Origin: Cerasicoccus maritimus
GTDB taxonomy: Bacteria > Verrucomicrobiota > Verrucomicrobiia > Opitutales > Cerasicoccaceae
DNA length: 64,000 nucleotides
Assembly: GCA_031296935.1 (NCBI GenBank)
Contig: JAVDPD010000021.1
Span: 46,755 to 110,754, forward strand
Reading direction: 5' to 3'
The position numbers and the translations under genes are program-made. The number at the start of each line of letters is the position of its first letter. Position 1 is the first letter of the stretch. Below, piece after piece: positions 25,708 through 47,015 of the stretch. The notes below the pieces were generated by a model that saw only the letters and a list, made by a program, of their open reading frames with translations, had not been told where the DNA came from and ran no database searches.

Positions 25708-25935
25708 TCAAAGCACCGCGCCCAAGTGAACAATGCCAGTCTTCATCGCATGAATGGCGGCTTGAGTTCGGTCCTGAATTTGCAACTTAGGTAGCATGTT
25801 CGAAATTTGCAGCTTAACCTTACGTTCAGACAGACCCAAATCATGCATGATATCTTTATTGCTACGCCCATGCACCACCAGACACATCACTTGCATATCA
25901 TGCTATGTCAGAGTTCTTGGCGCATCGAGGTCATG
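25708..25935 (-). pseudogene. remnant of a LuxR/NarL-type response regulator (HTH domain)
   Basis: The last 62 codons read as an intact-looking LuxR-type DNA-binding domain: VVHGRSNKDIMHDLGLSERK, then SNMLPKLQIQDRTQAAIHAM. In the same frame upstream is DAPRTLT, then an in-frame TAG (25903-25905) where an LTxREMQV motif is expected. The receiver domain is missing, replaced by the end of the beta-helix gene. So this is the tail of a decayed regulator at the edge of the glycan locus, not a working gene, although a 62-residue product from the ATG at 25896 cannot be excluded. Confidence 0.7.
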
Positions 25936-27728
25936 AAGCTTTTTTCAAGTTCAGGCGGCAAATAATGTTCGTGCGCAGCCACTCCTATGATGGCGTTTAA
26001 CGTATCGGAGATCTCGACAGACTTCGACCAATCCCCCTGCATACCAGCTAAAGTAGCCCGCCAAATTAAGTCATATTGAACAAAGAAAACTCCAGAAGTC
26101 AGGAGCCATTCCTGAAAGTTTTTGCTGTATTGAAGCCCACACACCCTCCCAGGATTCGCCATCATAGAGAAATAGGCTTCTTGGTCATTCGCCTCGATGC
26201 TAGCGCCACCCCATGTAGAGGCTTCCGCGCCAAACTCATAAGCGCCCGCGTCCGGGCTCTCCCCTACAGTACGCTCAAGGCCATCTAAATCCCGCACGCC
26301 TGACACCTCACTCGTTGAGCCGAGATCGATAGCTGGAGAGCCTGTAGTCAGTCGAAAATCACCTGAGGCAGCACCGATAAAACCTGGCGCAGCAAACACC
26401 TCTTCCGCCCTACTCAGGGCGAGGTTATCATACGTGGGCCAACCCTCGGTCCAATCGCCCCCCAAGACCCAAACCGGTGTTTCTGGCCCGTAATAAAGGT
26501 TGCGGTTAATCACGAGCCCAACGGCATCATTATTCCATTGCACAATGAAGATATTGCACTCCCCGGACTTAGTAATGTCGTGGTAAAAGATGTTCGCCGT
26601 AATTTCGGTATCGATCACTTGGTACTGAATGTGCAGTTGGCCGAATTCATCGCCGTTGGCCTGTGTGTCATTGTTATAAAACGTATTGTGCGTAATCACG
26701 CAATTTGCCGCGCTCCCTGTGGAGCCAGACTCATAGCCGCCGATGAACAGTCCGGCCATCAAGCATTCGGTCAGCAAGTTGGACCGCACGATGACATTCG
26801 AAGTCGACTTGCCGAGATGCTCGGACGCCACCTCAACGCCGATATCACACAGGCTCACTTGATTGCGCTCGATGACGATATCCCGTCCACCATCGACGTA
26901 TATCCCTGCTGAGCATGGCCCGTTGTAGGATGGATTCCCAACCGTCGACACTCCACTGACACAGTTGCCGCTGATCCATCCGTTTCGAGCTTGATCCAAC
27001 GCATCGGTTGGGCCAACGCCTTCATATCCGATACAATCAATGCCAATGTTATCGCAGTTGGAAACTGAATTCTCAATGATGCGAAAGCCATCTACGTTAC
27101 CATTAATCACCAGCGCCTCACTGGAGCCAAGCGTCAGGTCGCGCACGATATTGCCCAAGACCAGGAGCTCACTGATCGCGATTGCATCCGTGCCAAATAC
27201 GCCGATGCCATGCGCGTCACGCCCAGATCCATTGGCTCTCGGATTCGCGAGTGTTGCGATTTGCTCAACGGTGTTGTTAACCAGTTCAACGCCTGTTCCC
27301 GATCCTTCATAAAGAATGCCAACCGGCGTCTGGTCGCGATTACTCGTAGATAAGTTACGAACAGTCAGCCCTTCGATCCGCACATAGGAGCAGTCCTGTA
27401 GTTCAACCAAGCCCATTCGCCCCGAAACGATGATCTCGGAACCGTCAATTACCACCGTTTCGCCATCATGAGCACGAATGGTAATATACGCGCCCTCGCT
27501 TCCTGATTGATTGACCAACACACACTCCGCATAAGATCCTGCACGCACATTGATGCCGTCTCCTGGCGAAACTTGAGTGAGCGCATGGGCGAAGGTGCCC
27601 CAAGGCGCATCGATGTCTCCCGTAGCTGAATCACTGCCATCGGTCGCCAGATAATATTCGGCAGCAGAGGCTCCGGTTGGAGCAATTGCCAAGGCCGTAA
27701 AGGCGACTAAATTTTCAAACCTCTTCAT
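25908..27728 (-). CDS. secreted right-handed parallel beta-helix protein
   Basis: A 606-residue exported protein. Signal peptide MKRFENLVAFTALAIAPTGASA, then a DUF1565-type start (YYLATDGSDSATGDIDAPWG) and about 400 residues of parallel beta-helix repeats rich in Asn and Val. A choice-of-anchor-like segment follows (GSPAIDLGSTSEVSGVRDLD, DAGAYEFGAEA). Such folds bind or cleave polysaccharides (lyases, pectinases). No catalytic residues can be assigned. The start at 27728 overlaps the end of the transporter gene by 14 bases, so it is the last gene of that operon. Confidence 0.82.
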   Translation of the reverse strand: MKRFENLVAFTALAIAPTGASAAEYYLATDGSDSATGDIDAPWGTFAHALTQVSPGDGINVRAGSYAECVLVNQSGSEGAYITIRAHDGETVVIDGSEIIVSGRMGLVELQDCSYVRIEGLTVRNLSTSNRDQTPVGILYEGSGTGVELVNNTVEQIATLANPRANGSGRDAHGIGVFGTDAIAISELLVLGNIVRDLTLGSSEALVINGNVDGFRIIENSVSNCDNIGIDCIGYEGVGPTDALDQARNGWISGNCVSGVSTVGNPSYNGPCSAGIYVDGGRDIVIERNQVSLCDIGVEVASEHLGKSTSNVIVRSNLLTECLMAGLFIGGYESGSTGSAANCVITHNTFYNNDTQANGDEFGQLHIQYQVIDTEITANIFYHDITKSGECNIFIVQWNNDAVGLVINRNLYYGPETPVWVLGGDWTEGWPTYDNLALSRAEEVFAAPGFIGAASGDFRLTTGSPAIDLGSTSEVSGVRDLDGLERTVGESPDAGAYEFGAEASTWGGASIEANDQEAYFSMMANPGRVCGLQYSKNFQEWLLTSGVFFVQYDLIWRATLAGMQGDWSKSVEISDTLNAIIGVAAHEHYLPPELEKSFMTSMRQEL

Positions 27729-29724
27729 GCTTATGCAAATCATCGGCATTCATTCCATTGACGACGGTGCCATCATCATCCACATCCAGCCGCACTTTAT
27801 TCAAATCTGCAAACATACGACGCACATCCCCCACCCCGCCGCAGATAAACCAGCCAGTAGTAAAGATGCCAAGGATGACAGATATCCAGAGATTCACCTG
27901 CCAGAAAACAATCCATGTTTCCTCGCTGACTCCAACGCTTAAATTAACCGCACTGCCGATCAGAAAGACACACCACCAGCCAATCACCCATACTATTGTG
28001 CCGAGGTAGATTACTTTATCCCACTTCGAAAACTCCGGCCCCATGCCCAAGTTTCGCCATGACTTAATCGGCATCTCGACAGAAGGATCGTCCACGCGAC
28101 GGAACTCTCCACGATGCAAAAGCTTATCCATGTTGTGCGCGTAGTTCTGCAAAAGCGAGCCTACCACATAGCCGATGATCGCACACAGCATCGAGAAAAA
28201 CATCATCTGACGTCCGTTAAAGGGAAAATCATCCGCAATGCTTTGTAACGCAAAGTTATCTGGGAACCACTCAAGCAGCATTGGCGCAATTTCTGACCAA
28301 TACGACTGTAGCAGGAGGCCTCCCGCCGAGAACGTTGCGCCAATAATCATCGCCGCCCATGCGCCGGCTGTCGTGCCGCGTTTCCAATACAACCCGCCAA
28401 TGATCACCGAGCCCGCCCCTCCGAGGAAAATCGCCCCAGTGATATCGAAGAACATATAAATGTAATCACGCAGAGGGAAGATCATGCTAAAACACCACGC
28501 AAAAAACGCCACGCCCAGCAAACCACAGCGTAAGAGTAAAATGTGCTGCTTCATGCTCAGCGGTTTCTTTCGAAATGGCAGAATCACGTCCTGGATAAAT
28601 ATGCTACTCCAAGAGTGCAGATAAGTGTTATCCGTGCTGACCGCCGCCGCCACGATCACCGCCGCAAGCAGACCGGTGACGCCAATTGGAAGGATATGTT
28701 GCAAGCCGACTGGCACCGTCATTTGATGGCGAATGGCAGGCTCGCTAAACTGACTCAGGTCGCGCGTAATCTCTACTGCTTGCTCGCTGAAAACAGGATT
28801 GTGCAACACAGCAAACACGCACAACGGCATCAGCAGCATTGCCATGCCCTGCGCCATAGCCCGCCAGTTGCCCAAAATGCCCGCCATACGCGCCTCATGC
28901 GGCGAGCGGGCTGACGCATTGTAGGCGCTGCTCCCTTGCCAGGCCCGCGTGGTGTAAACCACCATGAAAACACCGATCAGGTAGTAGCCGATATTGAAGT
29001 CGTCCATGCCGCCGGCCTGGAACGGATGAATCATTGACTGATCAGCAGGGCGCGTCTGTAAGCCCGCAATAATATCTCCCCAATCAAACATCCACAGAAG
29101 GAATATCAGGATCACCATAAACGCGATGAGGCTAAACATCGACTGTGCAAAGTCAGTCAGCAGCACTGTGATTTGACCACCCAGAAAGACAAACAGTAGC
29201 GCAATGAGCAGCTCGATCGCCATCACAATGGGGAACACCGCCACGGGCGTCCCGAAGATCATGACCACATCCGGTAATTGACAAAAGTGGATAAAGAACC
29301 GCGCCGTAATTGCGGGAAAAACTCCGTAGTTAATCAGCCCCGATAGAAATGCAAGCAGCCCACAAAACACACGAAAACTTCTGCTGTAGCGCATCTCAAT
29401 GAACTGCGGCATCGTCATGGAGCGCGTTTGCCTGAAGCGGTAAATGACAAAGCCCGACAGCGCAATGATAAGCCCAAGTGGTGAGAGAAAATAGCTCCAC
29501 CAGATGGGAACAAATCCGGCTTGGTAGGTGATTTCAAAGGCGCCCACAATGGTAATCGCGCCAAGCCCCGCGATTCCTTCAGAAAGCGTCAGCAGATAAC
29601 GACCGGCGCAGCGGTTGGCCACGAGATAGTCCGCCACCCCCCGCATATAGCGCCGTGAGTAAAGCACGAGCCCCAAAAGCGCGAATAGGAATACCGAGAC
29701 GATTCCCCAGTCGATAATGCTCAT
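27715..29724 (-). CDS. sodium:solute symporter (SSS family)
   Basis: A 669-residue membrane protein with about 13-14 hydrophobic helices. It starts MSIIDWGIVSVFLFALLGLV and contains the SSS hallmark region GLGAITIVGAFEITYQAGFV. The long C-terminal extension with three more helices resembles sugar-type SSS carriers of Bacteroidetes and Verrucomicrobia. It is nine bases behind the GH114-like gene, so I infer it imports the sugar or short oligosaccharide released by that enzyme, driven by sodium. It substitutes for the ABC or PTS importers otherwise used. Confidence 0.9.
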   Translation of the reverse strand: MSIIDWGIVSVFLFALLGLVLYSRRYMRGVADYLVANRCAGRYLLTLSEGIAGLGAITIVGAFEITYQAGFVPIWWSYFLSPLGLIIALSGFVIYRFRQTRSMTMPQFIEMRYSRSFRVFCGLLAFLSGLINYGVFPAITARFFIHFCQLPDVVMIFGTPVAVFPIVMAIELLIALLFVFLGGQITVLLTDFAQSMFSLIAFMVILIFLLWMFDWGDIIAGLQTRPADQSMIHPFQAGGMDDFNIGYYLIGVFMVVYTTRAWQGSSAYNASARSPHEARMAGILGNWRAMAQGMAMLLMPLCVFAVLHNPVFSEQAVEITRDLSQFSEPAIRHQMTVPVGLQHILPIGVTGLLAAVIVAAAVSTDNTYLHSWSSIFIQDVILPFRKKPLSMKQHILLLRCGLLGVAFFAWCFSMIFPLRDYIYMFFDITGAIFLGGAGSVIIGGLYWKRGTTAGAWAAMIIGATFSAGGLLLQSYWSEIAPMLLEWFPDNFALQSIADDFPFNGRQMMFFSMLCAIIGYVVGSLLQNYAHNMDKLLHRGEFRRVDDPSVEMPIKSWRNLGMGPEFSKWDKVIYLGTIVWVIGWWCVFLIGSAVNLSVGVSEETWIVFWQVNLWISVILGIFTTGWFICGGVGDVRRMFADLNKVRLDVDDDGTVVNGMNADDLHKHEEV

Positions 29725-29733
29725 AGAAAAACC

Positions 29734-31122
29734 TTAGTTGAGCGACTTGAGCCGAACCTGCTCCACCCACATGAGGTCGGGGCGACTCGGAGAACCCATG
29801 CCATCCACTTGCACCAGACGCAGAGCAACGATGTCCATCGCGTCGAATTTCAAATCGTTGCTTAACTGTTCGTTGTCCTCAACGGCAACCACCGGCACCC
29901 ACTCTTCCGCCTGATCTGCGGGCATGACTTCGACACGAAATTCACGCGCTTGGTGGTGGACCCCATTGTCAAATGCCCAGTCAACTGAGAACCCATCAGC
30001 AGAGACTGGTCGCGGAAACTGAAACTCCAAAAAGTGCTCTCCGTGCTTTTCCCAAGAAGCCCAGGCGCGGCGACGCCAATCCAGCTGCTCTCGCTCGCTG
30101 ATCCCGTCGACCACCGGCGTCACATCGTAGTCTGGATAAATCGAACTTGGAGCCACCTTCGTTCCCGCTGGAAAGCCGTTCGCTGATTCCGGCAGTTGAT
30201 AGGTCATGCGTTCGGGCGTATTCTGTAGCTCGAGGTACTTACCATCTGGTGTGGGTGAGTAATCGATGTCATAAATGGCATCCAAGTAGATGGTCGACAC
30301 CTCTGGCACGTAACCAAACGTTAACGCACGGTCCATTGCAATGCGGGTATTTTCATGATCAGCAGATTCCGCGTAATCCAGCGCCAGCACTACGATTCCA
30401 TGATTATCCATCGCAGGCTTAAGCACATCACGCCACAGCACAAGACCGTAGTCCCAAGCCGACGGTTTGAGCAGCATGTATTCCTTGGCCGCAAAATCAT
30501 AACTTGCCGTACCGCTCTCAAACATAACGCCGTCAATTGAACCTGCGAGGGCAGGAACCGTATGAAAGCCTCGGTTGATCACAATAATGCTGTCAGGCTG
30601 TTGGGCGCGCAAATCTTGTATGAGCGAGATCATTGCGTCCTTCGACTCCGGGTAAAGCTCGCTGGTGTCCACCGTATCGAGGAAAAAGCCATCAACCCCG
30701 TACTCATCGCGCATGGCGGCAGTTCTCTTCAAGAAATACTCACGCCAAGCCGGTTCACGCGCATCGGCGTAGTAGGAATTCCAGATTTTGTTTTTATCAG
30801 GTGCATCATTGCCGTCACGGTCAAAATAGCTAGAATCCATGCCTCCGGGCCCTTCGCCATCGCCCACGCGTAAAGCATCATCTTCGCCAATGCTGATGTA
30901 GCCAATGACAAGAGCGCCCCCGTCTTGCATTTGAGTAATCGAAACAGGGCTTTGTTGGCTGGTCTCGATAATGACAGCGTCTCGAGAAACGAGCTCCTCG
31001 ACCTTTCCAGGACCATAATAGCACGCATAGGAATCGATCTGCTGGAATCGGCTACGCAAATCAGAGGCAAAGCCAAGGCACGCAACCCAAAGAAAGGCCG
31101 CGAATGGAAATATTAGTCGCAT
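29734..31122 (-). CDS. secreted GH114-like endo-alpha-1,4-polygalactosaminidase
   Basis: A 462-residue exported glycosidase. Signal peptide 1-19 (MRLIFPFAAFLWVACLGFA). The TIM-barrel landmarks of the GH114/TM1410 family are clear: GYISIGED (74-81), EYFLKRTAAMRDEYGVDGFF with the acidic LDTVD (about 147-152), then VINRG and a VLALDYA strand. After about residue 320 comes a galactose-binding/F5-8-type C-terminal beta domain (FLEFQFPRPVSADGFSVDWA ... PDLMWVEQVRLKSL). The founding GH114 enzyme cuts alpha-1,4-galactosamine polymers. The longer frame adds 36 non-signal residues, so I start at 31122. Operon with pilin and transporter. Confidence 0.82.
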   Translation of the reverse strand: MRLIFPFAAFLWVACLGFASDLRSRFQQIDSYACYYGPGKVEELVSRDAVIIETSQQSPVSITQMQDGGALVIGYISIGEDDALRVGDGEGPGGMDSSYFDRDGNDAPDKNKIWNSYYADAREPAWREYFLKRTAAMRDEYGVDGFFLDTVDTSELYPESKDAMISLIQDLRAQQPDSIIVINRGFHTVPALAGSIDGVMFESGTASYDFAAKEYMLLKPSAWDYGLVLWRDVLKPAMDNHGIVVLALDYAESADHENTRIAMDRALTFGYVPEVSTIYLDAIYDIDYSPTPDGKYLELQNTPERMTYQLPESANGFPAGTKVAPSSIYPDYDVTPVVDGISEREQLDWRRRAWASWEKHGEHFLEFQFPRPVSADGFSVDWAFDNGVHHQAREFRVEVMPADQAEEWVPVVAVEDNEQLSNDLKFDAMDIVALRLVQVDGMGSPSRPDLMWVEQVRLKSLN

Positions 31123-31138
31123 ATTATTAGGGGTAAGT

Positions 31139-31780
31139 TTATTTAAAATCTGGCATGTTGCGAATCGGCACAAAGTAAGGCTCCTCTGTGGTAACTTCGG
31201 TGTAATCCAAAGTGTCCACATGGCCATCAAGGAACAGAGCCACTACAAGGTTATTGCCATAGCGGTCTGGGTCAGCCGGATGATCAGGAGCAATGTAGCC
31301 CCAGCAATCGGTCTTAGGCCCATCAGCAAGCACCAGCGTCTTCGAGGGATCGGCAAAAATGAACTGTGACAGCACGTGATCACCTTCACGGGATGTATCG
31401 CCGAGATGCCTCCCCATCACAACATAATTCCAGCCATAGGAAATGGTCTGTGCCAGCGTGTTGTAGTCAGTGTCATTAAACTCTTCATGAGCCGGACTGT
31501 GAAATATCTCTGTATCATCGCCAAGATACGGGAGCAGCAACTGCCACCAATATTGGCCGGTGTTATAGTTGTGCCAGACCGGTATGTTATTGTCGTGTTC
31601 TTGGGCATACATCTGGGTTCCGCCTCCAATGTTACGCACATTGGAGATGCTGTTCGTGAGTAGGCTTTTCTCCCGAACAGCGCCTAACACTGCGATGAGG
31701 ATACTCGCCAGTATGCCGATTACCGCGACACAGACGAGTAACTCCACCAAAGTGAACCCAGATTGCTTACGCCATTCCAT
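31139..31780 (-). CDS. type II pseudopilin-like protein
   Basis: A 213-residue protein with a class III prepilin leader: RKQSGFTLVELLVCVAVIGI, where cleavage would fall after Gly8 and Glu is at +5. After the membrane helix comes a globular domain of the kind found in the large planctomycete/verrucomicrobial pseudopilin family (NVRNIGGGTQMYAQEHDN, SYGWNYVVMG, FLDGHVDTLDY). It lies 16 bases before the GH114-like gene. These proteins are often encoded beside glycan-degradation genes; a role in surface display or secretion is inference. Confidence 0.85.
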   Translation of the reverse strand: MEWRKQSGFTLVELLVCVAVIGILASILIAVLGAVREKSLLTNSISNVRNIGGGTQMYAQEHDNNIPVWHNYNTGQYWWQLLLPYLGDDTEIFHSPAHEEFNDTDYNTLAQTISYGWNYVVMGRHLGDTSREGDHVLSQFIFADPSKTLVLADGPKTDCWGYIAPDHPADPDRYGNNLVVALFLDGHVDTLDYTEVTTEEPYFVPIRNMPDFK

Positions 31781-31802
31781 ATCGTAGCTGCGTAAGCAGA
31801 TA

Positions 31803-32489
31803 CTATGCTAAGTTGCGGCGACGAAGCAAGGTAATCGCGCCAGCCAGTCCGACAAAGATCATTGCGTAATGAGCCGGCTCGGGAACCGAAGCAAAAGTAT
31901 AAACTCCGGCACCGATAAAGTCATCCACCGTGGTCCCATTGCTATACATGGCAATCGCAATGGTGTCATTAGGGAAAATTGTGGCACCGCCTACCGTAAA
32001 GGTGGCAGAGCGACTGATAGATATTTCCTGTTCGCTGACGGTGGTGTTGTAGAGCGCAATTGCAGCGCCTCCATCGGTGATACCATTGCCGGTATTGAAA
32101 TTGCCAGTAGCCTGCTCAAAAGGGAAATCGTTTTGCCAGCCTACTTCCGAACCAACCAAGCCTAAACCATACACATCGTAGCCCGTTGAGGTATTGTTGT
32201 CATTATCTAGCGCAATGAATACTTGGGCATTACTTCCATTTACGCCAACTGGATCATTATAAACCACACGCAGGTAAAGATTGCTATCATCATTGGCCGC
32301 GTACAGCGTGATGAAGTCTACGGGATCACCATCACCAGTAGTGTCAGTGGTCAAGATCGGAACACCGACCCAATCTGAGAAATCCCCGTCGATAGTGATA
32401 TTCGCGTAGGTGCCTGCGACCGCCGATGCGCTAAGCACAAGTGAGCCCAGAACGCCGCAGATTAGTTTCGTAGTATTTGTTGATTTCAT
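31803..32489 (-). CDS. PEP-CTERM protein with CBM9-like domain
   Basis: A 228-residue secreted protein. Signal peptide about 1-25; then ANITIDGDFSDWVGVPI, the typical opening of a family 9-like carbohydrate-binding (DOMON-type) domain, with FIALDNDNNTSTGYDVYGLG inside. The last 25 residues are a PEP-CTERM sorting signal: VPEPAHYAMIFVGLAGAITL followed by LRRR. PEP-CTERM tails are cut by an exosortase and leave the protein on the cell surface or matrix. I infer a surface glycan-binding protein of the locus. Confidence 0.88.
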   Translation of the reverse strand: MKSTNTTKLICGVLGSLVLSASAVAGTYANITIDGDFSDWVGVPILTTDTTGDGDPVDFITLYAANDDSNLYLRVVYNDPVGVNGSNAQVFIALDNDNNTSTGYDVYGLGLVGSEVGWQNDFPFEQATGNFNTGNGITDGGAAIALYNTTVSEQEISISRSATFTVGGATIFPNDTIAIAMYSNGTTVDDFIGAGVYTFASVPEPAHYAMIFVGLAGAITLLRRRNLA

Positions 32490-32537
32490 AGTGATATGGA
32501 TTTGTTGAGTGATATGAGGGTTGAATTTCTGGAAGAA

Positions 32538-33560
32538 CTAAGCGCCAGTAGAAATGCCGACTGACGCGCGCTGCACGTAGTAGCTACCGATGACATGCTT
32601 AGCTAATGCTCGCGGAGATTCGCTCTCTTCATCATCGAGCTGTGAAATAATGCTATCGACTGCAGTCTTCGCGATTTGACTACGTGGAATACCAATTGTG
32701 CTCAGGGAAGGCGTCGTATAGGCGGTAAATGCCAAGTCATCCATTCCAACAATCGAAATGTCGCCAGGAACATTAAGTCCCATGGCATTGGCTTCATTCA
32801 GCGCACCCATTGCCAAAACGTCTGTCGCACAAAGCACTGCCGATGGTCGCTGCGAAGCAACCTGATGAAATGCCTTTTGGCCATCAGAAAAGCTGACCGA
32901 ACCTTCCGCAATTAACTTAGGATCAACAGCCACCTGGCAATCCCCCAGGATTCGTCGGAAGCCGTTAACCTTGGCCGTGATTCCCGTCCCCCCAATGAAT
33001 CCAATTCGCTTGTGCCCCAAACTTGCCAAGTCTCGCACCGCGTCCGCCATTCCACTGAAAATATCCAGTTCGACCACGATCTCTTTCTTAATCGGAGCCC
33101 AAGGACGATTGGTCACGACAACCACCGGACACCCCTGTACGGACTCGATTAAGCGAGCCCCACTGGTGCGACCGTCTACGACGAGGATAATACCATCCAA
33201 ACCGCCACCACCTGTTAGTTGGCGCAACCGCTGATTCTCGCCCTTACCGGTACGGCTAAGCTCAAGGTGCACCGCTTGCCCACGCTTTTCGGCCGCCTTG
33301 GCGATTTCTTGCGCGAGCTCCATGTTGTAATAGTCGAATATCGGGTCTTCCGAAAAGCTGTAATAAAGACCAATCTGATTGGTTCGCTTCGAATTGAGAC
33401 GACTCGCATGGACATTGGGGGAAAACCCGCGAGCACGCGCCTCTTCCAAGACGCGCTCACGCGTCTTATCACTAATTCGCCCACGCCCGGAAAACGCACG
33501 GGAAACCGTCGCCGTTGAGACGCCGATTTGCTTGGAAAATTCTACAATATCAAGTGGCAT
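32538..33560 (-). CDS. LacI-family transcriptional regulator 1
   Basis: A 340-residue regulator. The N-terminal helix-turn-helix and hinge read IGVSTATVSRAFSGRGRIS, then the periplasmic-binding-like sugar sensor (FDYYNMELAQEIAKAAEKRG ... SIVGMDDLAFTAYTTPSLST). An operator-like 18-mer sits two bases upstream of the ATG, implying autoregulation. The second LacI gene of the locus (start 38865) has an identical stretch VSTATVSRAFSGRGRIS, so both should read the same operator. The effector is unknown, presumably a sugar or oligosaccharide from the target polymer. Confidence 0.93.
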   Translation of the reverse strand: MPLDIVEFSKQIGVSTATVSRAFSGRGRISDKTRERVLEEARARGFSPNVHASRLNSKRTNQIGLYYSFSEDPIFDYYNMELAQEIAKAAEKRGQAVHLELSRTGKGENQRLRQLTGGGGLDGIILVVDGRTSGARLIESVQGCPVVVVTNRPWAPIKKEIVVELDIFSGMADAVRDLASLGHKRIGFIGGTGITAKVNGFRRILGDCQVAVDPKLIAEGSVSFSDGQKAFHQVASQRPSAVLCATDVLAMGALNEANAMGLNVPGDISIVGMDDLAFTAYTTPSLSTIGIPRSQIAKTAVDSIISQLDDEESESPRALAKHVIGSYYVQRASVGISTGA

Positions 33561-33561
33561 T

Positions 33562-33579
33562 TGTAATAATGTTTACGCA
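33562..33579. promoter_or_regulatory. LacI-type operator, site A (upstream of regulator 1)
   Basis: TGTAATAATGTTTACGCA. The right half TTTACGCA is exact, the left half degenerate. It lies between the Gfo/Idh gene and the ATG of LacI regulator 1, two bases before that start. Confidence 0.55.
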
Positions 33580-33592
33580 AATTATCTTGAAA

Positions 33593-34720
33593 TCAGCGAC
33601 AGTAGGCCTCTCCGACGGCGACTTGAGCCAATTGGCGAACCTCACAGAATTGTCCAGTCTCGGAGCTCTCTTTCGCCGCCAAACAGGCATAGACACTTTG
33701 CAGTCCTGCCCAGATATTCGAGATGGAAGTCGCCTCACCACGAATGACCTTGAGGAAGTTTTCCGCCAAAACCCCATCGCCACCATGATGATGCAAATCG
33801 CAATCCACGCGTATAGTGTCCTCAAACGGTTTAAAATGATGCACCAGCTTAGCCTGGTTCTCATACCAATCAAAACAGAGAGTTCCCTGATGCCCCGAAA
33901 AAGTCGCGCCGCGCCGTGCCGCGCCACGCTTCGAGTAAAACACCTGCGTGTAGACACCTTGAACACCGTTTTCGAACTCAATGAGCGCACTAGAAGCGTC
34001 CTCATTCATACCAGTTTCGGGTGTTCCAATTTGCTCAAAGAAACCACAATTCGGATCAGGCTCAACATCCGCATATTTTGAGTCGCGATAAACACGCCCA
34101 CAGGACTTCATTGCACCAACGCGAACGATCGGACTACGCATGCAATAGGCCAGATAGTCGAGATCGTGCGTTGCCTTTTGAAGAAATAAACCGCCCGTCA
34201 CCCGGTAGTCGCGGTACCAACTATTAAAATAGACATCACCATAAGGCACATAATTAACAGCCAACACATGCTGAGGAATACCGAGTCCACCTTCATCTAA
34301 GATATGCTTCACTCGTGTACAGAGCGGTGATGCGCGTAGCGGAAAACTTACCACCGCTTCTGTTTCAGTATTCCGAAATGCAGCCTCCAATGCCATCGCA
34401 TCTTCAAGCGTTGTCGCAACGGGCTTTTCTAAAAAAAGCGGCAACCCGGTAGTAGCAACCTCAATTGCATATTTCGCGTGTAAATTGCAGCGCGTTCCAA
34501 CCGCAATCGCATCAACTCCAGTTGATGCAAGCTCCTCAACCGTCCTCGCAAATTTAACGGCCCTAGCCTCTTTCTCAGGAAGAACTTCACGCACCGCTGC
34601 TTCATCGGGGTCGAGCGCAGAGACAATCGTCAGTCCGGGCTCAACTTCACGCATACAGGTATTCACCATATGATTCAGTCGCTTGCCTAGTCCAATTACT
34701 CCAATCTTCATAATCGCCAT
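33593..34720 (-). CDS. Gfo/Idh/MocA-family NAD(P)-dependent protein
   Basis: A 375-residue protein with an N-terminal Rossmann fold (IGVIGLGKR) and the family's EKPVATTLEDAM motif; a later HDLDYLAY supplies the usual catalytic histidine region. There is no signal peptide, so it is cytosolic. The family includes sugar dehydrogenases and the NAD-dependent glycosidases of GH109, which act on alpha-N-acetylgalactosamine. Either activity would fit this locus. I chose the ATG at 34720 because an AGGTG Shine-Dalgarno lies 10 bases ahead; the upstream GTG would sit almost on top of it. First gene of a seven-gene minus-strand run. Confidence 0.85.
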   Translation of the reverse strand: MAIMKIGVIGLGKRLNHMVNTCMREVEPGLTIVSALDPDEAAVREVLPEKEARAVKFARTVEELASTGVDAIAVGTRCNLHAKYAIEVATTGLPLFLEKPVATTLEDAMALEAAFRNTETEAVVSFPLRASPLCTRVKHILDEGGLGIPQHVLAVNYVPYGDVYFNSWYRDYRVTGGLFLQKATHDLDYLAYCMRSPIVRVGAMKSCGRVYRDSKYADVEPDPNCGFFEQIGTPETGMNEDASSALIEFENGVQGVYTQVFYSKRGAARRGATFSGHQGTLCFDWYENQAKLVHHFKPFEDTIRVDCDLHHHGGDGVLAENFLKVIRGEATSISNIWAGLQSVYACLAAKESSETGQFCEVRQLAQVAVGEAYCR

Positions 34721-34753
34721 AAAAATCACTCACCTAGCAATCGTCAAGATTTT

Positions 34754-34771
34754 TGTGTAAATGTTTACGCA
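34754..34771. promoter_or_regulatory. LacI-type operator, site B (divergent promoter)
   Basis: TGTGTAAATGTTTACGCA, 17 of 18 positions fitting TGCGTAAA-NN-TTTACGCA. It lies between the divergent Gfo/Idh gene (start 34720) and the sugar kinase gene (start 34843), so one site can control both arms of the locus. Confidence 0.75.
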
Positions 34772-37871: not shown

Positions 37872-38865
37872 TTGACTCACGCTCGACAAAGAATGTGTTC
37901 ACTGTGTGCATAAACTGAGGTGCCGCCGCCGCATTGCCATCGGATGCACTCATAACGCTTTCGAGCATCTGTATGGCGCTCGCAGCAATTTTGGAACGCG
38001 GGACTCCAATACTGGACAGCGGTGGAGAGGTTTGCGATGCTAGAGCAAGATCATCCATGCCAACAATGGAGAGTTGCTCAGGCACAGACACACCTAACTT
38101 AACGGCTCCTTGCAACGCGCCGATCGCAAGTAAATCCGTGCAACAAACGACCGCATCAATTTTCTTCTTTAATAATATGCCTACAGCGCGTTGCCCGTCT
38201 TCAATCGTCTTAGGACCATTTACAATGAGTGACTGATCAACTTTGATTCCAGATGCGACCAAAGCGGTTTGGTAAGCCTTAAGCTTGGTGTCGTCCGATA
38301 AGCCACGGATAAAACCGATACGACGATGCCCCAGGCGCACAAGGGTTTGAACAGCCTGCTCGATGCCGCTCTCGAAGTCCAAATGAATAAATCCGGTGGA
38401 TAAATGATTCGACCAAACCTGATTCGCAATGACTATAGTAGGGCAGTCAGAGATGACTTTTCCCAAACCGTCCAAGCTACGCTCACTATCCGCTACAATG
38501 ATCACGCCATCCAAGCCTTTTCCAGCAATGAGGTTGTTCAACTGCAAGTCAGGCTGCGATGGGCTCCTTAATACTAAGTGCAAGGAGATACCCCGCCCCG
38601 CACAAGCTTTGGCAATCTCCTGCGCGAGCTCCATGTTATAGTAATCAAAAATGATCTCCTCGCCAAACGTGTAGTAAAGCCCAATGACACCACTAAACTT
38701 GGATGATAAGCGACGCGCATTGATATTTGGCGCAAAGCCGTGCTTTCGCGCTTCCTCCAGGATTCGCTCCTGAGTTTTTTTACTGATGCGTCCACGCCCA
38801 GAAAAAGCGCGCGAAACAGTCGCGGTTGAAACACCTACAATCTCTGAAAATTCACGAATGTCCAT
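37852..38865 (-). CDS. LacI-family transcriptional regulator 2
   Basis: A 337-residue paralogue of regulator 1. The DNA-reading region VGVSTATVSRAFSGRGRIS is essentially identical, while the sugar-binding half diverges (FDYYNMELAQEIAKACAGRG is kept; LNNLIAGKGLDGVIIVADSE differs). Same operator with a different or tuned inducer is therefore likely. A weak operator-like site lies 80-97 bases upstream. Regulators 1 and 2 bracket the kinase operon. Confidence 0.93.
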   Translation of the reverse strand: MDIREFSEIVGVSTATVSRAFSGRGRISKKTQERILEEARKHGFAPNINARRLSSKFSGVIGLYYTFGEEIIFDYYNMELAQEIAKACAGRGISLHLVLRSPSQPDLQLNNLIAGKGLDGVIIVADSERSLDGLGKVISDCPTIVIANQVWSNHLSTGFIHLDFESGIEQAVQTLVRLGHRRIGFIRGLSDDTKLKAYQTALVASGIKVDQSLIVNGPKTIEDGQRAVGILLKKKIDAVVCCTDLLAIGALQGAVKLGVSVPEQLSIVGMDDLALASQTSPPLSSIGVPRSKIAASAIQMLESVMSASDGNAAAAPQFMHTVNTFFVERESITAVER

Positions 38866-38962: not shown

Positions 38963-39054
38963 AACAGGGCTAGGCCACGCGGACAAGCCGATGAGCGATG
39001 TCGACGATCCAGTCGTGGAATCACAAACGCCCAAGATGCCAACCGAATGCCATT

Positions 39055-42000
39055 TTAGCGCACTTCAATTTCCGTCAGCCATAGAATGTTCGGTCGAATC
39101 TCTGAGCCACGTCTCGCAGGCTGGAGAATCTCTAAACTTGCCAGCTTAGTCGGCTCAAAAACAACCGTCGTCACGTCAGTCGTTGCATCGTTCTGAAAAC
39201 GTGTCAACTGACGGCGTTGCCCGTCAAGCATACACCCTTGTATAACTCCCTCCCTTGAGGTATAAGTAACGCCCCCCTCATGATTCCAAAAGAGCTTAAC
39301 TTCGCTAATCTCGATGGGCTCCGGAAACTTAAAGCGCACCCAATGCGGAGAAGCAGATTCCTCTGACGCCCAGGCAGCTTCATTGAACGCCATGCTTGCA
39401 GTCGGTCGGGTGATGCCATCGCGCAGCGGTGAAGGTCCATAACCTGGAAAATCGCTGCTCGTTTCCACAATCACCGCTGTATCGCGCACCACGCTCACCT
39501 GCTGCCCGAGGAATTGCAGTTGCACCACGCCTTCGAACATCTCGAACCCCATTCCCGATACCTTCAGTTCAATAGCGCCAGACTCACGCCCCGCCGCAGG
39601 AACCGGGATGTAAACCGTTTGCTCATCTCCAGCATTTAATGGAAAAGCCTTCCGCCCTTCCCCAAAATCGCCACTCCAACGCACATCGACCAGACTAACC
39701 TTCTGGAGGAGGTTCGTCAGTCGCAATGGAACTTGCGCGACATCCTGAATAGAAATTACTTTGCTTTGTGGCAGGGCTACATCAACAGGATTCAAACGCT
39801 GCCAGGAAAGCGGTATTGCCAAGGTTTCCGCTATGCCTTCCTTCATGACAATAAAGCGTAGAAGAAACGTATCCTCGTCAAAATCCGCAGGAACAGTCAG
39901 CTCAACCTCACACGTTTCGCCTGCGCCCAAAGTGACATTAGGCATCTTCTCAATCGATGGCTCTTCGGACAACAAACTAATCTTCTCGAATTGCAACGCG
40001 GCACTGCCGACGTTAGCCATGTCGATGCGTATTTCCTGCGCCAAACCACGCAACGCGGGTTGTGGTAAATTAACCACGAGCCTCACGCCCAGGGCTTGCT
40101 GCTCCTGAATCGACTCCAGTTGACTAATTAACTGAGCGGCTTGTCCCTTGCCGTCATACCATCCGCGTAGAAAATCCATTTCATTCGAGATTTCACTGCT
40201 TGGAAAAATCATGAAAAAGCGCACCTGCTCAGGTTCTAGAAAAACAGGGATTTCACCCCGGCCACTTGCACCAACAGAAAGCCAGCCAGCATCGCCAGCT
40301 AAGGGGTTCAGCACAATCCAATCCTGTGCCTCACCAGCTAACGTCACTTGAATATGACCAGAGGTCGGAGCCTTTGACGTGTTGCGTACAGTTATGAATT
40401 TTGCCGCATCACGGGTGCCATAGTACTGCTCGATCTCAATGACATGACTAAACGATTGCGCCTCTCCCACAGGTTGCCAGCCAACATTCGCCAAGCGCCG
40501 AATCCAAGGCATGTAACGCTGAAACCAATGCCTGTCACGCTCATACCATGCTGCGTTTTCCCAATATGGATCATTGGCAGCGTCATGGCTAAATAAGCTT
40601 GGCTGAAATGCCCAATAAAGACTGTCCTCAAAATAGCGCCGCGCAAACTCCGGTCGAAGATGATCGTATTTGCCATTCATCAAAAAGCCCCAAGCTTTCT
40701 GGCCCGACATCGCTCGCCGGTAATTCAACTCGCGGTCTGCCATACGCTTATAATTCCCTTCATGAAACCAATGCGTTTCTTCACCTGGGATATCGATAAA
40801 TGGCATAAAGAACGGAAAATTCCAGCAAGGAAAATTGCCCATTAGGTACTTCTCGGAAGCATTCATAAAACCACCTAACCCAGCAATAAATTCATAAGCA
40901 GCAATTGGCGTGGCGAGCCCTGGCGTCATGGCATCGGTCGTAAAAGTTGCCGGATAATTTGTAACTGCCATAGCCTCAGGATTGTAGTCCATGATAAACA
41001 TTGCCGAAAGCGAATCTAGGTAGATGCCATCGATCTTCTCATGAGCAACCTGTTCCCGCATAAAATAGAACTCAGCCATTGCTCGATTAACCGGTGCGTC
41101 TGACGAGGTTGGTAACTCTGGATCGGTGCTAACCTCCATTCGTGCACCGGAATTCCAGGGCACATCCGAGAAAGTCATATTGATCCCGCCATCGGGCTCT
41201 CTTGCCGCACCCAATAAGCCCCCGGATGCAAATTCATTTGCCTTACCAAAGCCATCCACCGCAAGTCGCTCCATCATGGCGATGGCGTTCTCCGGTGTCC
41301 GCTCCATGCCTCCCGGCATTGGCAGCCAGTACAGCCACGGCTCCGTGTAAGCCAAGGTAAGCACACCATTATCATGGCAGAAGTCGACATCAGATCCAAT
41401 TGCGCCACCCTTTTCGTAGTAAGCAAATCCAAAATCCTGCGGGCTCGGAATCTTTGAAATATCCGTGAAAGGCATCCAAAGCCCAACCTCATCAGGACGA
41501 CGCTCAAAAAGAGATGTATTACGCTGATAAAACTCTGAAAGCGCGTGCCGAAATGCCAGCCCCTCAACTAACGAGCGACTTCGCAAAGAAGCGTGGAAAG
41601 CAGCCTGTCCGGGAAATTTTTTGGTCAATGGTGTAAGCGCTACATGGTAATCTATAGCAAGCTGCTCTCGATCCGTGTTGGCAGATATTTTAAAAACACA
41701 AGGCTCATTTAAGTCCGTTTCGAGCACTATAGCCTGCGAGCCATTATCAACCACACCAAATGGGTATTTGGAAACACTGCCATCCATCCCGTAGGGGCTG
41801 CTGCCAACATGCGCGTACTCGATATTCTCGCGATTAATCTCACGGGCAAATTGAACATCGTCATGCCATGTCCACCCCACAAGCTGGGCCTGCACTCCAA
41901 TACTAAATCTAAGCAGTCGGACTCGCTCACTCTTAAGCCCCGCGTATAGGTCAAGGTCTCCGCGCTCAGATGATTGCGCAATCACGCGCCAGTCAACTCC

Positions 42001-43176
42001 GTCCGCACTTCCCTGCCACTCAATCATATCATCAGTTTTACGTACGCGAGCAGGCTGCAAGTCAAAGACCTCGCCGGACTTTGCATCACAAAGCTCAAAC
42101 CGCAAATTAAGTGGCTCCGCAAACCCTGGAGCATCCCATGTGGGTTCAGACAGATCTACATCATACCAAGGCAAAGAGCCGAAGCGTTCGTTGAAGGTAA
42201 TGCTCAACGAATCGGGAACAAAGGCGATGAGCTCCTCAACTAGATATTTTTTAGGCCCGACTTTTTGGTCGGGCCCATTATAAGAGTAATCACCCATGGT
42301 GTCTTTAGTAATTCGCTTGAACCCCTGCCCCGGATAACGCTCCAACACTTCCCATTGGCTGTTAGTCCTCTCCACACTGAAGTCCATCGATTCTCCGATT
42401 TCGATGTTATCAATAGAGTACACAACTCCATCAGGATTAACTTCGGGTGATAGCTGGTAGATTGGCGTCCAATTCCAGTCGTTGTCCACGCCCGAATGTT
42501 GGTAGAACGTCAGCCCTTCGATCATGTAGTCTGCACCATAAGGCGCTAAGCCCGTCGCAACATCCTCGTCATTATTAATTAGCACGCGCAGTCGTGAAGG
42601 CTCCACGCCTTCTCCTATTACTTTCACGGCCAGCCCACTTCTACCACTGCGGTAAAGACGACCAATCAAGCCATTATCCGCAGTAGGATTCGACGGCGTC
42701 AACTGCGAGTAATCGACTGATAATGCGTCAGTCTCAGGATAACGATCAACAACGCTCCAATCACTATCAACATTCTCTACATAAAAACGCATTACCTTGA
42801 ACCTTGGCAACGCGTTCACCGAGTAAGTAAGCACCCCCTCGGAAACTTCATAAGGAACCACGCCCACCTGCTTCCACTCCCAACCAGTGGCAGTATCAGG
42901 ATATGCGTAAAGCGTCGCACCTTCGATCATGTAATCAGCACCATATTCGCCAAACCCGCTACTGGAATCGCTATCGATATCAAACATCAAGCGTGTTTGT
43001 TGCACATCAGGAGCAGGCTCTTTTATCCCTACTTGCAAGGCACCGCTTTCCGCAAGCCCCACTTCTACGGAATCGATCGCAAATGCGGCTGACGTCATCA
43101 AAAAAAAGCCAGTAACCCCCTGTAGTGAAAACTTTAAGGTTCGATAAAAATCCAAAGAAGATACTACTGAAATCAT
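39055..43176 (-). CDS. giant secreted putative glycosidase with binding modules
   Basis: A 1373-residue exported protein I cannot place in a named family. Signal peptide about 1-33. Two successive modules (about 34-140 and 165-275) each contain GADYMIEG, the module also found in the larger GH114-like protein. A central region of about 450 residues looks like a TIM-barrel glycosidase (WMPFTDISKIPSPQDFG, TLAYTEPWLYW, and EKIDGIYLDSL near residue 717, an acidic strand-end motif). Next are Ig-like beta domains and a C-terminal F5/8-type galactose-binding domain (ASPHWVRFKFPEPIEISEVK). The best operator of the locus lies 38 bases before its start. Probably outer-surface attack on the polymer. Confidence 0.75.
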   Translation of the reverse strand: MISVVSSLDFYRTLKFSLQGVTGFFLMTSAAFAIDSVEVGLAESGALQVGIKEPAPDVQQTRLMFDIDSDSSSGFGEYGADYMIEGATLYAYPDTATGWEWKQVGVVPYEVSEGVLTYSVNALPRFKVMRFYVENVDSDWSVVDRYPETDALSVDYSQLTPSNPTADNGLIGRLYRSGRSGLAVKVIGEGVEPSRLRVLINNDEDVATGLAPYGADYMIEGLTFYQHSGVDNDWNWTPIYQLSPEVNPDGVVYSIDNIEIGESMDFSVERTNSQWEVLERYPGQGFKRITKDTMGDYSYNGPDQKVGPKKYLVEELIAFVPDSLSITFNERFGSLPWYDVDLSEPTWDAPGFAEPLNLRFELCDAKSGEVFDLQPARVRKTDDMIEWQGSADGVDWRVIAQSSERGDLDLYAGLKSERVRLLRFSIGVQAQLVGWTWHDDVQFAREINRENIEYAHVGSSPYGMDGSVSKYPFGVVDNGSQAIVLETDLNEPCVFKISANTDREQLAIDYHVALTPLTKKFPGQAAFHASLRSRSLVEGLAFRHALSEFYQRNTSLFERRPDEVGLWMPFTDISKIPSPQDFGFAYYEKGGAIGSDVDFCHDNGVLTLAYTEPWLYWLPMPGGMERTPENAIAMMERLAVDGFGKANEFASGGLLGAAREPDGGINMTFSDVPWNSGARMEVSTDPELPTSSDAPVNRAMAEFYFMREQVAHEKIDGIYLDSLSAMFIMDYNPEAMAVTNYPATFTTDAMTPGLATPIAAYEFIAGLGGFMNASEKYLMGNFPCWNFPFFMPFIDIPGEETHWFHEGNYKRMADRELNYRRAMSGQKAWGFLMNGKYDHLRPEFARRYFEDSLYWAFQPSLFSHDAANDPYWENAAWYERDRHWFQRYMPWIRRLANVGWQPVGEAQSFSHVIEIEQYYGTRDAAKFITVRNTSKAPTSGHIQVTLAGEAQDWIVLNPLAGDAGWLSVGASGRGEIPVFLEPEQVRFFMIFPSSEISNEMDFLRGWYDGKGQAAQLISQLESIQEQQALGVRLVVNLPQPALRGLAQEIRIDMANVGSAALQFEKISLLSEEPSIEKMPNVTLGAGETCEVELTVPADFDEDTFLLRFIVMKEGIAETLAIPLSWQRLNPVDVALPQSKVISIQDVAQVPLRLTNLLQKVSLVDVRWSGDFGEGRKAFPLNAGDEQTVYIPVPAAGRESGAIELKVSGMGFEMFEGVVQLQFLGQQVSVVRDTAVIVETSSDFPGYGPSPLRDGITRPTASMAFNEAAWASEESASPHWVRFKFPEPIEISEVKLFWNHEGGVTYTSREGVIQGCMLDGQRRQLTRFQNDATTDVTTVVFEPTKLASLEILQPARRGSEIRPNILWLTEIEVR

Positions 43177-43213
43177 AATGTAAAAGCAGGGGTTAAAGCT
43201 GTTTCAAATTTAT

Positions 43214-43231
43214 TGCGTAAACATTTACGCA
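43214..43231. promoter_or_regulatory. LacI-type operator, site C
   Basis: TGCGTAAACATTTACGCA, a perfect TGCGTAAA/TTTACGCA pair with a CA centre, 38-55 bases ahead of the 1373-residue glycosidase gene on the minus strand. Confidence 0.8.
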
Positions 43232-43328
43232 AACACTAAGAAAGTCAAGCTCTTTGGAACATTTTTCCAAGAAATACAGGAGCACAAATTGCGAACGAAA
43301 CTGCCCATAGCATGGTAAAAGCTTCAAT

Positions 43329-43360
43329 AAAAAGGCGGCGCGAGATGCCCCGCGCCGCCC
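43329..43360 (-). terminator. intrinsic terminator after the large GH114-like gene
   Basis: GGCGGCGCG (43334-43342) pairs perfectly with CGCGCCGCC (43351-43359); on the minus strand the stem is followed by TTTTTATTG. It insulates the next gene and its operator C. Confidence 0.9.
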
Positions 43361-43402
43361 AACTAATGGATCGTAATAATGGATAAATTACCCATGATAA
43401 CA

Positions 43403-45628: not shown

Positions 45629-45712
45629 AGTGCTATTGGTGTTGAATTGGATATACGATAAGCCGCTCAACGGACACTTCCCTCTAGTAGTATTTAGAAG
45701 AAAACAAATATT

Positions 45713-45730
45713 TGCGTAAACGGTTACGCC
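45713..45730. promoter_or_regulatory. LacI-type operator, site D
   Basis: TGCGTAAACGGTTACGCC: left half exact, central CG, right half 6 of 8. It lies 85-102 bases before the large GH114-like gene. Confidence 0.7.
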
Positions 45731-45789
45731 CACAACCGCAAGAAAAATATTCTTTAGTCGCTACAGAGAGTTGCAGGACAAATAGATAT

Positions 45790-45821
45790 AAAGGGGATGA
45801 AGCACATTGCTCCATCCCCAG
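45790..45821 (-). terminator. intrinsic terminator after the GH135-like gene
   Basis: GGGGATGAAGCA pairs with TGCTCCATCCCC (one mismatch); on the minus strand it is followed by TTTATATC. It separates the GH135-like gene from operator D. Confidence 0.8.
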
Positions 45822-45847
45822 AAACACAAAAATTGTGGCTATTACAG

Positions 45848-46630
45848 TTAGCGATAGATCACATCATACATAAGCTCCCACCAAAAGCTTGGGAGTTGGT
45901 CGAAAGGATTCCCCGCAAAGGTTTCATCCGTTATATAGACGTATCGAGTATTGCGACTACGTGCGATATCGGAAATCTCATTGACGTAATACTCTGACGG
46001 CGTTGCGACCATTGAATGTACAATCATAGCAAAGCAATCCTCAGAAAATACCCAACGCCAACTTGGCACGGAGTCCGAGTAGTAATCCCACGAATAACCT
46101 TCGTAAGTCACCAGCACATCGACTACCGACCACCAAAGGTAGAGATCGGTGGCGTCGTTACCAGCATTGCCCATCACCAGGAACCCCGGATAGTTGTTTT
46201 TAATGTAGTGATAGATCTCACTATAGTATTGAAGAGTCGACAAAGCGCCGTCACCCAAGGTTTCATCAAGGAAAATGCCGTCAATATCATACCAAGCAAC
46301 ATATTGATCAATGTCAGCTTTCACTTGGGCGATTGCTCTAGCGCCGTAAGTTGTAGGGACATAGCCGATCACCAAACCACCCTTTAACCTTAGATTATCA
46401 ACTGCATTCTCATAGTTAACATCGTAGGAAAGCCCAGGCCCGCTCGCCGGGTTCATCACGGTGATAATATCAGCCCCAGCATCTAAACCAACGCCAATCA
46501 TATCCCAATCACTCCCCGAAGGGGTAGGATAAAAATACGCCGGTACAACAACTGACAACGGTCCTGCCTGAAGGAAATTAGCTGCGACTATCCCTAGAAA
46601 GACAAGTGACATTTTGAGATTATAAATCAT
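45848..46630 (-). CDS. secreted GH135-like (spherulin-4 family) glycosidase
   Basis: A 260-residue exported protein. Signal peptide about 1-23. The spherulation-specific family 4 pattern is clear: VVPAYFYPTPSGSDWD, GLVIGYVPTTYGARA, AWYDIDGIFLDE, YHYIKNNYPGFLVMGNAGND, VVDVLVTYEGYSWDYY. The named member of this family, fungal Sph3 (GH135), hydrolyses the N-acetylgalactosamine-rich galactosaminogalactan. The Asp and Glu of IDGIFLDE are the likely acid residues. Single gene with its own operator-like site 171 bases upstream. With the GH114-like enzymes it points to one class of substrate. Confidence 0.82.
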   Translation of the reverse strand: MIYNLKMSLVFLGIVAANFLQAGPLSVVVPAYFYPTPSGSDWDMIGVGLDAGADIITVMNPASGPGLSYDVNYENAVDNLRLKGGLVIGYVPTTYGARAIAQVKADIDQYVAWYDIDGIFLDETLGDGALSTLQYYSEIYHYIKNNYPGFLVMGNAGNDATDLYLWWSVVDVLVTYEGYSWDYYSDSVPSWRWVFSEDCFAMIVHSMVATPSEYYVNEISDIARSRNTRYVYITDETFAGNPFDQLPSFWWELMYDVIYR

Positions 46631-47015
46631 GATAGATATTAGTTATTAGTTCGTAAGCGCCGCGAATCAGGTAACTCTCGGCGGTTCAAGATGGGGTTAC
46701 CAAAAGTAGTCAAGGAGAACCCAACCACTGCAATGCACGTGCTTCGGTAATTACAAAAACGAACGTGTTACCCAAACCGTGCGCCGTGAGCTAAACAAAA
46801 TGCGTAACCGTTTACAATAGTTTTCTGCGCTATTCCATCACTCTACGTTTAGAGAGTTCACCCTCGCCATTCATCCAGATATAAAGCAAGCAGGAGCGTG
46901 CAGTGGGCTCTTGGCTCCTCTTCATAGATTGGGGACAAGGAATACAATATAGCCCAATGGCCGACGCGATGCGTCGTGAGATACGCAGTATCTCGTTTCC
47001 AAAGCTTTGCTTTGG
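46631..47015. other. gene-free region upstream of the GH135-like gene
   Basis: About 385 bases without a credible gene. It holds operator-like site E (46801-46818). The stretch 46640-46800 is the likely leader of the GH135-like gene, but I see no clear promoter boxes. The right end abuts the tRNA. Confidence 0.6.
46801..46818. promoter_or_regulatory. LacI-type operator, site E
   Basis: TGCGTAACCGTTTACAAT: left half 7 of 8, central CG, right half 5-6 of 8. It lies 171-188 bases before the GH135-like gene, farther than the other sites. Confidence 0.55.

Follow-up and report, generated by a model that had tools for sequence, protein, structure and literature searches.

A 64-kb stretch of DNA from the marine bacterium Cerasicoccus maritimus (the window; positions 46,755-110,754 of contig C21, in an assembly of 4.81 Mb and 97.56% completeness) contains a unit of 14 genes, between window positions 25,908 and 46,630, which we propose to be a LacI-controlled catabolic regulon for an alpha-1,4-linked polymer of N-acetylgalactosamine (GalNAc) and galactosamine (GalN) that resembles Pel or galactosaminogalactan (GAG). 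We give this reading a probability of about 0.7. It is supported at the level of sequence by the identities of the genes, by a common operator, and by the conservation of the gene set among relatives, and at the level of prediction by the fold of a 1373-residue protein designated BIG1373. The original prediction placed here a complete-looking locus for such a polymer, containing two GH114-like enzymes, a GH135-like enzyme, and genes for uptake and sugar salvage, all linked by one operator. Every gene that it listed was found in its place and the co-regulated set is supported, whereas the GH114 label had to be corrected and the 1373-aa protein was missing from the list.

The candidate operator, the 18-bp sequence TGCGTAAACGTTTACGCA, was recognised by reading the intergenic palindromes; a first-guess LacI motif, TGNNANCGNTNNCA, had no matches. 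With up to three mismatches, TGCGTAAACGTTTACGCA occurs at three sites in the window, against 0.01 expected, and none of 100 shuffles reaches three. These strict sites represent three promoters: one upstream of BIG1373 (43214-43231, one mismatch), one upstream of the secreted enzyme P776 (45713-45730, two mismatches, with matching copies in the relatives G083 and G104), and one in the divergent promoter of the kinase gene NahK and a Gfo/Idh/MocA oxidoreductase gene (34754-34771, two mismatches, again with matching copies in relatives). At four to five mismatches there are eight more matches in the window, of which three precede the GH135 gene and the regulator genes LacI_1 and LacI_2, and the other five look like chance. 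The weak site upstream of the GH135 gene (46801-46818) has four mismatches, and weak copies with four and five mismatches also precede the GH135 genes of G083 and G104. In other words, the claim that one operator links all of the genes holds strictly for three promoters. In the whole genome, TGCGTAAACGTTTACGCA is found at four places with up to three mismatches, and the reversed control at three, so that the number of sites by itself is unremarkable. What stands out is where they lie, as the three genomic sites with one or two mismatches all lie inside the cluster.

The same pattern is seen in relatives. Across nine genomes, the exact core GCGTAANNNNTTACGC occurs in 14 copies (reversed control, 4), 13 of which adjoin genes of the set. 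The set is scattered in G094, with a BIG1373 homologue at about 0.28 Mb, genes of the 776-aa type at both 3.07 and 3.25 Mb, a gene for a beta-helix protein at 3.45 Mb, and a block of NahK, GH166, and symporter genes at 4.83 Mb; nevertheless, all five exact cores in this genome lie at or just upstream of set genes, in four separate places (control, 0). One of the two copies at 3.25 Mb lies within the initial codons of the longest reading frame, the one at 3.45 Mb pointed to a beta-helix homologue (36%, 540 residues) missed by the homology search, and the gene at 3.07 Mb has a four-mismatch copy only. With a less strict search pattern, three copies are found in G117 (two of them in the cluster; control, 3), two in G054 (both within the cluster; control, 1), one in G022 (control, 1), and two in G071 (control, 3). 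The exact core lies no more than 80 bp from the BIG1373 start in nine of 14 loci (the loci without it are L052, L054, L055, L056, and L059), where the start in G083 is an estimate and L057 and L058 were left out of the scan. No other evidence for a single regulon is as strong as this placing of the operator, particularly that in G094. One or both of the LacI proteins, LacI_1 (32538-33560, minus strand) and LacI_2 (37852-38865, minus strand), each with PF00356 and PF13377, would bind the TGCGTAAACGTTTACGCA-type operators.

The 14 cluster open reading frames (ORFs) were scanned against Pfam, and ten of them also against NCBIfam. The GH135 (Spherulin4) enzyme (45848-46630, minus strand; its N-terminus is signal-peptide-like, as judged by eye) is as originally described: it matches PF12138 at 3.9e-41, with 141.6 bits against a Pfam cut-off of 30.2, and the Sph3 structures in the PDB at 3.1e-13, and it is the sole PF12138 match in the source genome at E <= 0.001. 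The Asp of its FLDE motif and the Glu at residue 177 align with an Asp and a Glu of Sph3, and are probably the published catalytic pair.

Two further enzymes had been described as GH114-like. The first (29734-31128, minus strand, in an ORF that runs to 31230) carries an F5/8C domain and scores 32.5 bits with the Pfam GH114 model, above the cut-off of 27. Nevertheless, PelA is the only relative that it finds in the PDB at E <= 0.1 (best, 3.3e-25), and because the PelA-like protein of a pel operon also scores 48 bits, the Pfam model cannot separate GH114 from GH166. The Asp of its FLDT motif and the Glu of its FES motif are aligned with PelA, and this Glu is at the position occupied by Glu in 5tcb and by Ala in 5tsy, the title of which gives E218A; the catalytic Glu of PelA is printed as Glu223 in PMC12054363, which disagrees with the E218A numbering. 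The second enzyme, P776 (43403-45628, minus strand), has an fn3 domain and a C-terminal carbohydrate-binding-like module; its ORF extends to 45733, and the ATG at 45628 was chosen by eye. Neither Pfam nor NCBIfam assigns the whole protein to a glycosidase family, its sequence alone finds no glycosidase structure in the PDB, and its excised domain scores 16.1 bits with Pfam GH114, under the cut-off. A profile built with its relatives, which contains four GH166-like sequences and leans on them, finds PelA only in the PDB (7e-16). A match at 2.5e-14 links the GH166 enzyme to L018, a homologue of P776, and invariant Asp and Glu motifs are common to P776 and that enzyme. In a Foldseek search with a weak model (predicted local distance difference test, pLDDT, 59.8), PelA took ranks 1-2, GH191 rank 3, PbFucA ranks 4-5, and FsGH114 rank 6. 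By sequence, neither enzyme matches a GH114 structure (Ega3 or FsGH114) at E <= 0.1. The original label is thus corrected for both secreted enzymes, as their closest relative is the PelA hydrolase (GH166) and not Ega3. GH114, GH135, GH166, and GH191 are described as related endo-galactosaminidase families, in which the members with measured activity act on GAG, Pel, or polygalactosamine and TmGH191 showed none (PMC12054363). Both GH166-like enzymes may hydrolyse alpha-1,4-linked GalNAc.

BIG1373 (39055-43176, minus strand) is a large secreted protein with two N-terminal binding-like modules, which resemble the C-terminal module of P776 (BLASTP, 4e-9 and 6e-6), and a C-terminal F5/8C domain. 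This domain, below threshold, is its sole match in Pfam and NCBIfam, where no GH family was found; the catalytic domain matches no Pfam family at E values up to 10, including GH36 and GH129. The central 691 residues, aligned with 13 relatives, gave an AlphaFold2 model with a pLDDT of 86.5 and a predicted TM-score of 0.88, and the best Foldseek matches of this model are MYORG, GH36, GH31, and GH129 structures. The predicted fold is a super-sandwich plus a barrel, with query TM-scores of 0.38-0.52 to GH36 and GH129 among the 50 matches listed. Of these matches, the galactosaminidase of Flavonifractor plautii scores highest (0.52/0.55), narrowly ahead of the GH36 alpha-galactosidases (0.51). Invariant residues are D721 in the motif GIYLDS (after a strand), D795, and E800. 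Because the fold is GH36/GH129-like and the highest of the listed TM-scores is that of the F. plautii galactosaminidase, we propose, without proof, that BIG1373 is a probable alpha-galactosaminidase or alpha-N-acetylgalactosaminidase of a new family, and it is possibly the monomer-releasing enzyme of the locus. A GH129 family search in ten genomes of the family gave no match, and its controls likewise gave none, so that it is uninformative. No BIG1373 was found in viral contigs.

The genes for uptake and salvage that the original prediction listed were all found. They comprise a sodium:solute symporter (27715-29724, minus strand; PF00474, 3.3e-15), the N-acetylhexosamine 1-kinase NahK (34843-35979, plus strand; full-length matches to the NahK structures 4wh1 at 3.2e-80 and 4ocj at 3.9e-80), a sugar-1-phosphate nucleotidyltransferase (36005-36898, plus strand; PF00483, with the best PDB match to 3pnn at 9.9e-90, where its function is not named), and a UDP-hexose(NAc) 4-epimerase (36882-37871, plus strand). 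The NahK ORF starts at a TTG at 34753, and the ATG at 34843 is the likely start. Published NahKs are reported to accept GalNAc and N-acetylglucosamine (GlcNAc) well, and several other C2-modified substrates, including GlcNH2, poorly (PMC6264712). The nearest PDB structures of the epimerase are 6wjb (7.4e-61) and 6wj9, which we take to be PelX. The Ser of its GDI-HS stretch would be the small residue in the C5 pocket, at a position that presumably corresponds to Tyr299 of the E. coli enzyme. A small residue (Cys or Ser) at this pocket position has been tied to the use of UDP-GalNAc by epimerases (PMC6668579).

Distribution was searched in 177 genomes drawn from the order, including a family subset of ten. 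BIG1373 is present in seven of the 177, six of which also have NahK, and a full-length GH166 homologue in six, all of which also carry BIG1373 (Fisher 1.8e-10 over the 177 genomes, ignoring phylogeny; 0.024 within the ten of the family). Any GH166 match at all is found in eight genomes, but G117, where the match is to the F5/8C domain of BIG1373 only, and G145, with a PelA-like gene beside a PelF-like gene, were not counted, and the PelA-like gene of G083 was likewise excluded. P776 has any match in six genomes, with G054 and G117 included through a module of 40-50 residues only, and GH135 is found in four. The set recurs in relatives with varying gene content: the GH166 enzyme, BIG1373, and the symporter form the more conserved core, in which BIG1373 is the partner conserved best, and GH135 and P776 are accessories that are full only in some relatives. 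BIG1373 of G104, from the same genus, is an 82% match. In named contigs, 11 loci contain BIG1373 relatives, two of which (L049 and L050) are G104 and G117 again. Identity is 33-38% in L051-L055, four of which have a symporter relative, and the contig of the fifth ends inside the gene; two P776-like genes adjoin the BIG1373 relative of L051, a Rariglobus metagenome-assembled genome (MAG), and L054 has a partial NahK at the contig edge. Identity falls to 25-28% in L056, L057, L058, and L059, which come from Sumerlaeota, Phycisphaerae, and a groundwater Verrucomicrobia MAG, and no further cluster gene was recognised in the available stretches of these loci. In G145, the 40-kb stretch around the GH135 gene (L010/L011) contains no further gene of the cluster; the same genome contains adjacent PelF-like and long PelA-like genes (L111:6374-12223).

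For the substrate, the enzyme activities, the direction of the pathway, the LacI ligand, and LacI binding, we infer the following from the sequences. The secreted endo-enzymes would cleave the chain: GH135 where it is acetylated, and the two GH166-like enzymes where it is either acetylated or partly deacetylated. BIG1373 would then act on the resulting oligosaccharides and free GalN, GalNAc, or short units. The sodium symporter would import the released sugar, NahK would convert GalNAc to GalNAc-1-phosphate, the nucleotidyltransferase would form UDP-GalNAc, and the epimerase would turn this into UDP-GlcNAc, which enters normal amino-sugar metabolism. The LacI protein or proteins would sit on TGCGTAAACGTTTACGCA-type operators, and repression would be lifted when an intermediate appears.

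Several observations weigh against this proposal. The operator counts in the source genome barely exceed those of the reversed control (4 versus 3; for the exact core, 2 versus 1). One exact core copy (G104:C17:16002-16017) and one near-copy outside the cluster of G117 (G117:C42:560605-560622) lie elsewhere, and could be further regulon members or chance. G022, from another family, has a block of NahK, Gfo/Idh, and LacI_1 with the same operator (L112:5773-9195), and the order-wide searches found no BIG1373, GH166, P776, or GH135 in this genome; salvage may therefore be used for other sources. By the same searches, the G117 cluster is without a full GH166, GH135, or P776, and no NahK was found in G054 at E <= 1e-20. 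NahK relatives occur in 56 of the 177 genomes; therefore, the salvage step is not specific, and NahK alone was dropped as a diagnostic of the regulon. For the BIG1373 model, MYORG and GH36 alpha-galactosidases outdo the galactosaminidase in E-value, and the latter also come within 0.01 of it in query TM-score; the weak P776 model has PbFucA among its leading matches. The epimerase Ser is also present in 4zrm and 7ys8, both named UDP-glucose 4-epimerase, so that it permits, without proving, the use of UDP-GalNAc. The 14 scanned ORFs revealed neither a deacetylase nor a route for free GalN, and for this reason "complete-looking" was too strong a description. Finally, a GH114 protein of Zobellia is reported to be induced on agar (PMC5613140).

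Some of these observations would fit a regulon for another marine glycan that contains GalNAc (algal, mucin-like, or chondroitin-like), with the GH166/GH135-type barrels acting on a different linkage and the same NahK salvage following. The wide occurrence of NahK, the G022 block, and the PbFucA ranks are consistent with this explanation, as are the induction of the Zobellia protein, the GH114 genes that brown algae are reported to carry (PMC11468063), and the secreted beta-helix protein of the cluster, which weakly resembles disaggregatase-related and chondroitinase B models. However, the beta-helix matches are no better than the Pfam cut-offs, and a GH135 enzyme together with two GH166-like enzymes jointly indicates alpha-1,4-GalN(Ac), as the characterised members described act on GAG, Pel, and polygalactosamine (PMC12054363). 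We consider a different glycan unlikely. Another explanation is that the enzymes trim or release a Pel-type matrix made by the organism itself, and that the salvage trio recycles the precursors. The founding members of GH166 and GH135 do serve biosynthesis (PMC12054363), and the sister species G083 holds both the cluster and a pel operon. On the contrary, the source genome has no match to a PelG model that scores the PelG of G083 at 368.6 bits, no operator with up to three mismatches is found in the pel stretch of G083 (L110), and the symporter, NahK, and LacI control are consistent with uptake, all of which makes matrix remodelling quite improbable. The frequency of NahK and the differing gene content of relatives could even suggest that unrelated secreted enzymes lie by chance next to a common NahK salvage operon; the placing of the operator and the scattered regulon of G094 speak against this, and we give it next to no weight.

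Within the proposed catabolic regulon, the evidence slightly favours a Pel-like target over fungal galactosaminogalactan, because the enzymes resemble PelA and the pel operon of the sister species has a related epimerase. Pel is described as an alpha-1,4-linked GalN/GalNAc polymer, which the PelA hydrolase and Sph3 degrade when it is re-N-acetylated (PMC9135694). The pel operon of G083 contains an epimerase, a PelA-like protein, a PelB barrel, a DUF3492 (PelF-like) glycosyltransferase, and PelG; the epimerase that heads it is 65% identical to the cluster epimerase, and G083 belongs to the same genus. The operon looks complete in two stretches, L110:7727-19787 and L124:2793-4172.

The remaining genes of the cluster are less easily placed. 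The Gfo/Idh/MocA oxidoreductase (33593-34717, minus strand; PF01408 and PF22725), divergent from NahK, has scyllo-inositol dehydrogenase as its best PDB match (1.7e-13), and GH109 was set aside for it, as no galactosaminidase-named entry was found among 43 PDB matches at E <= 0.001. The beta-helix protein (25908-27749, minus strand) is a putative regulon member with weak matches, at or under the Pfam cut-offs, of the Disaggr_assoc, chondroitinase B, PelN, and NosD types. A pseudopilin-like protein (31139-31780, minus strand; PF07963, 6e-10) has relatives in the cluster of G083, G104, G117, G054, G094d, and G050, and a PEP-CTERM protein (31803-32489, minus strand; PF07589, 16.9 bits, below the cut-off of 20.7) has relatives in G083, G104, G117, G094d, and G050; the two genes (window 31139-32489) thus recur in the cluster across several genera. 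Terminator-like hairpins on the minus strand follow GH135 (45793-45819, 12 pairs) and P776 (43333-43360, 12 pairs, 10 of them GC), both by pattern match only.

A tRNA-Gln gene (47016-47089, minus strand) directly adjoins the cluster, the GC content of which is 0.506 against 0.581 and 0.552 in its flanks. The GC dip and the adjoining tRNA gene hint at an acquired island. No tRNA was found in the scanned stretches of ten relatives, and horizontal transfer at tRNA-Gln is not proven. None of the eight window genes that flank the cluster was found in the 40-kb stretches of G083, G104, G117, and G054, of which the first two extend past the cluster mainly on the GH135 side.

It has been left open, in the account of PMC12054363, why four endo-galactosaminidase families occur in bacteria. 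The enzymes of GH135, GH166, and fungal GH114 that have been studied best belong to organisms that make Pel or galactosaminogalactan. A regulon in which three enzymes of this kind are combined with uptake and GalNAc salvage would offer an answer, namely feeding on biofilm matrix. In cultures of two bacteria and two fungi, galactosamine was on average wholly in the fraction of extracellular polymeric substances (PMC11014887), and the host of the regulon is a possible consumer of it. Such a regulon would also yield enzymes for use against biofilms of Pel or GAG, as well as a candidate for a new glycosidase family and a gene list. More tentatively, and with somewhat less than an even chance of being right, we suggest that a dedicated regulon for the use of cationic biofilm polymers of the Pel/galactosaminogalactan type as food exists in several Verrucomicrobiota, and in a looser form in Kiritimatiellota, in which BIG1373 represents a new GH family that releases GalN or GalNAc from alpha-1,4-GalN(Ac) chains in partnership with stand-alone secreted GH166 enzymes. 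Among the matches listed in a literature search that left the subscription literature mostly outside its scope, none described a bacterial locus for the catabolism of Pel or GAG.

Among known systems, the cluster is not a canonical polysaccharide utilization locus of the SusC/SusD type, as neither SusC nor SusD was found among the 14 ORFs. It resembles the Pel system in its two secreted enzymes, closest to PelA (GH166), and in its epimerase, related to that of the pel operon, but here the enzymes are stand-alone, secreted, equipped with binding modules, and set inside a sugar-salvage regulon, and the scanned cluster ORFs include neither a glycosyltransferase nor an exporter. The fungal galactosaminogalactan cluster (Sph3 of GH135, Ega3 of GH114, Agd3, and Uge3) has counterparts in the GH135 enzyme and the epimerase, whereas the scanned ORFs include no synthase or deacetylase and have catabolic partners instead. 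The predicted fold of the catalytic part of BIG1373 is like that of the GH36/GH129 alpha-(N-acetyl)galactosaminidases (the F. plautii enzyme and NagBb), from which BIG1373 differs in its identity of only about 9-11%, its lack of a Pfam or NCBIfam match, and its nature as a multi-module secreted protein. The bifidobacterial galacto-N-biose/lacto-N-biose pathway likewise leads from GalNAc to UDP-GlcNAc through a NahK-type kinase, a uridylyl-transfer step, and an epimerase (PMC6668579). Its phosphorylase, GalT, and ABC transporter were not found among the 14 ORFs; in contrast to that pathway, the cluster has a nucleotidyltransferase instead of GalT, together with a sodium symporter and secreted endo-enzymes.

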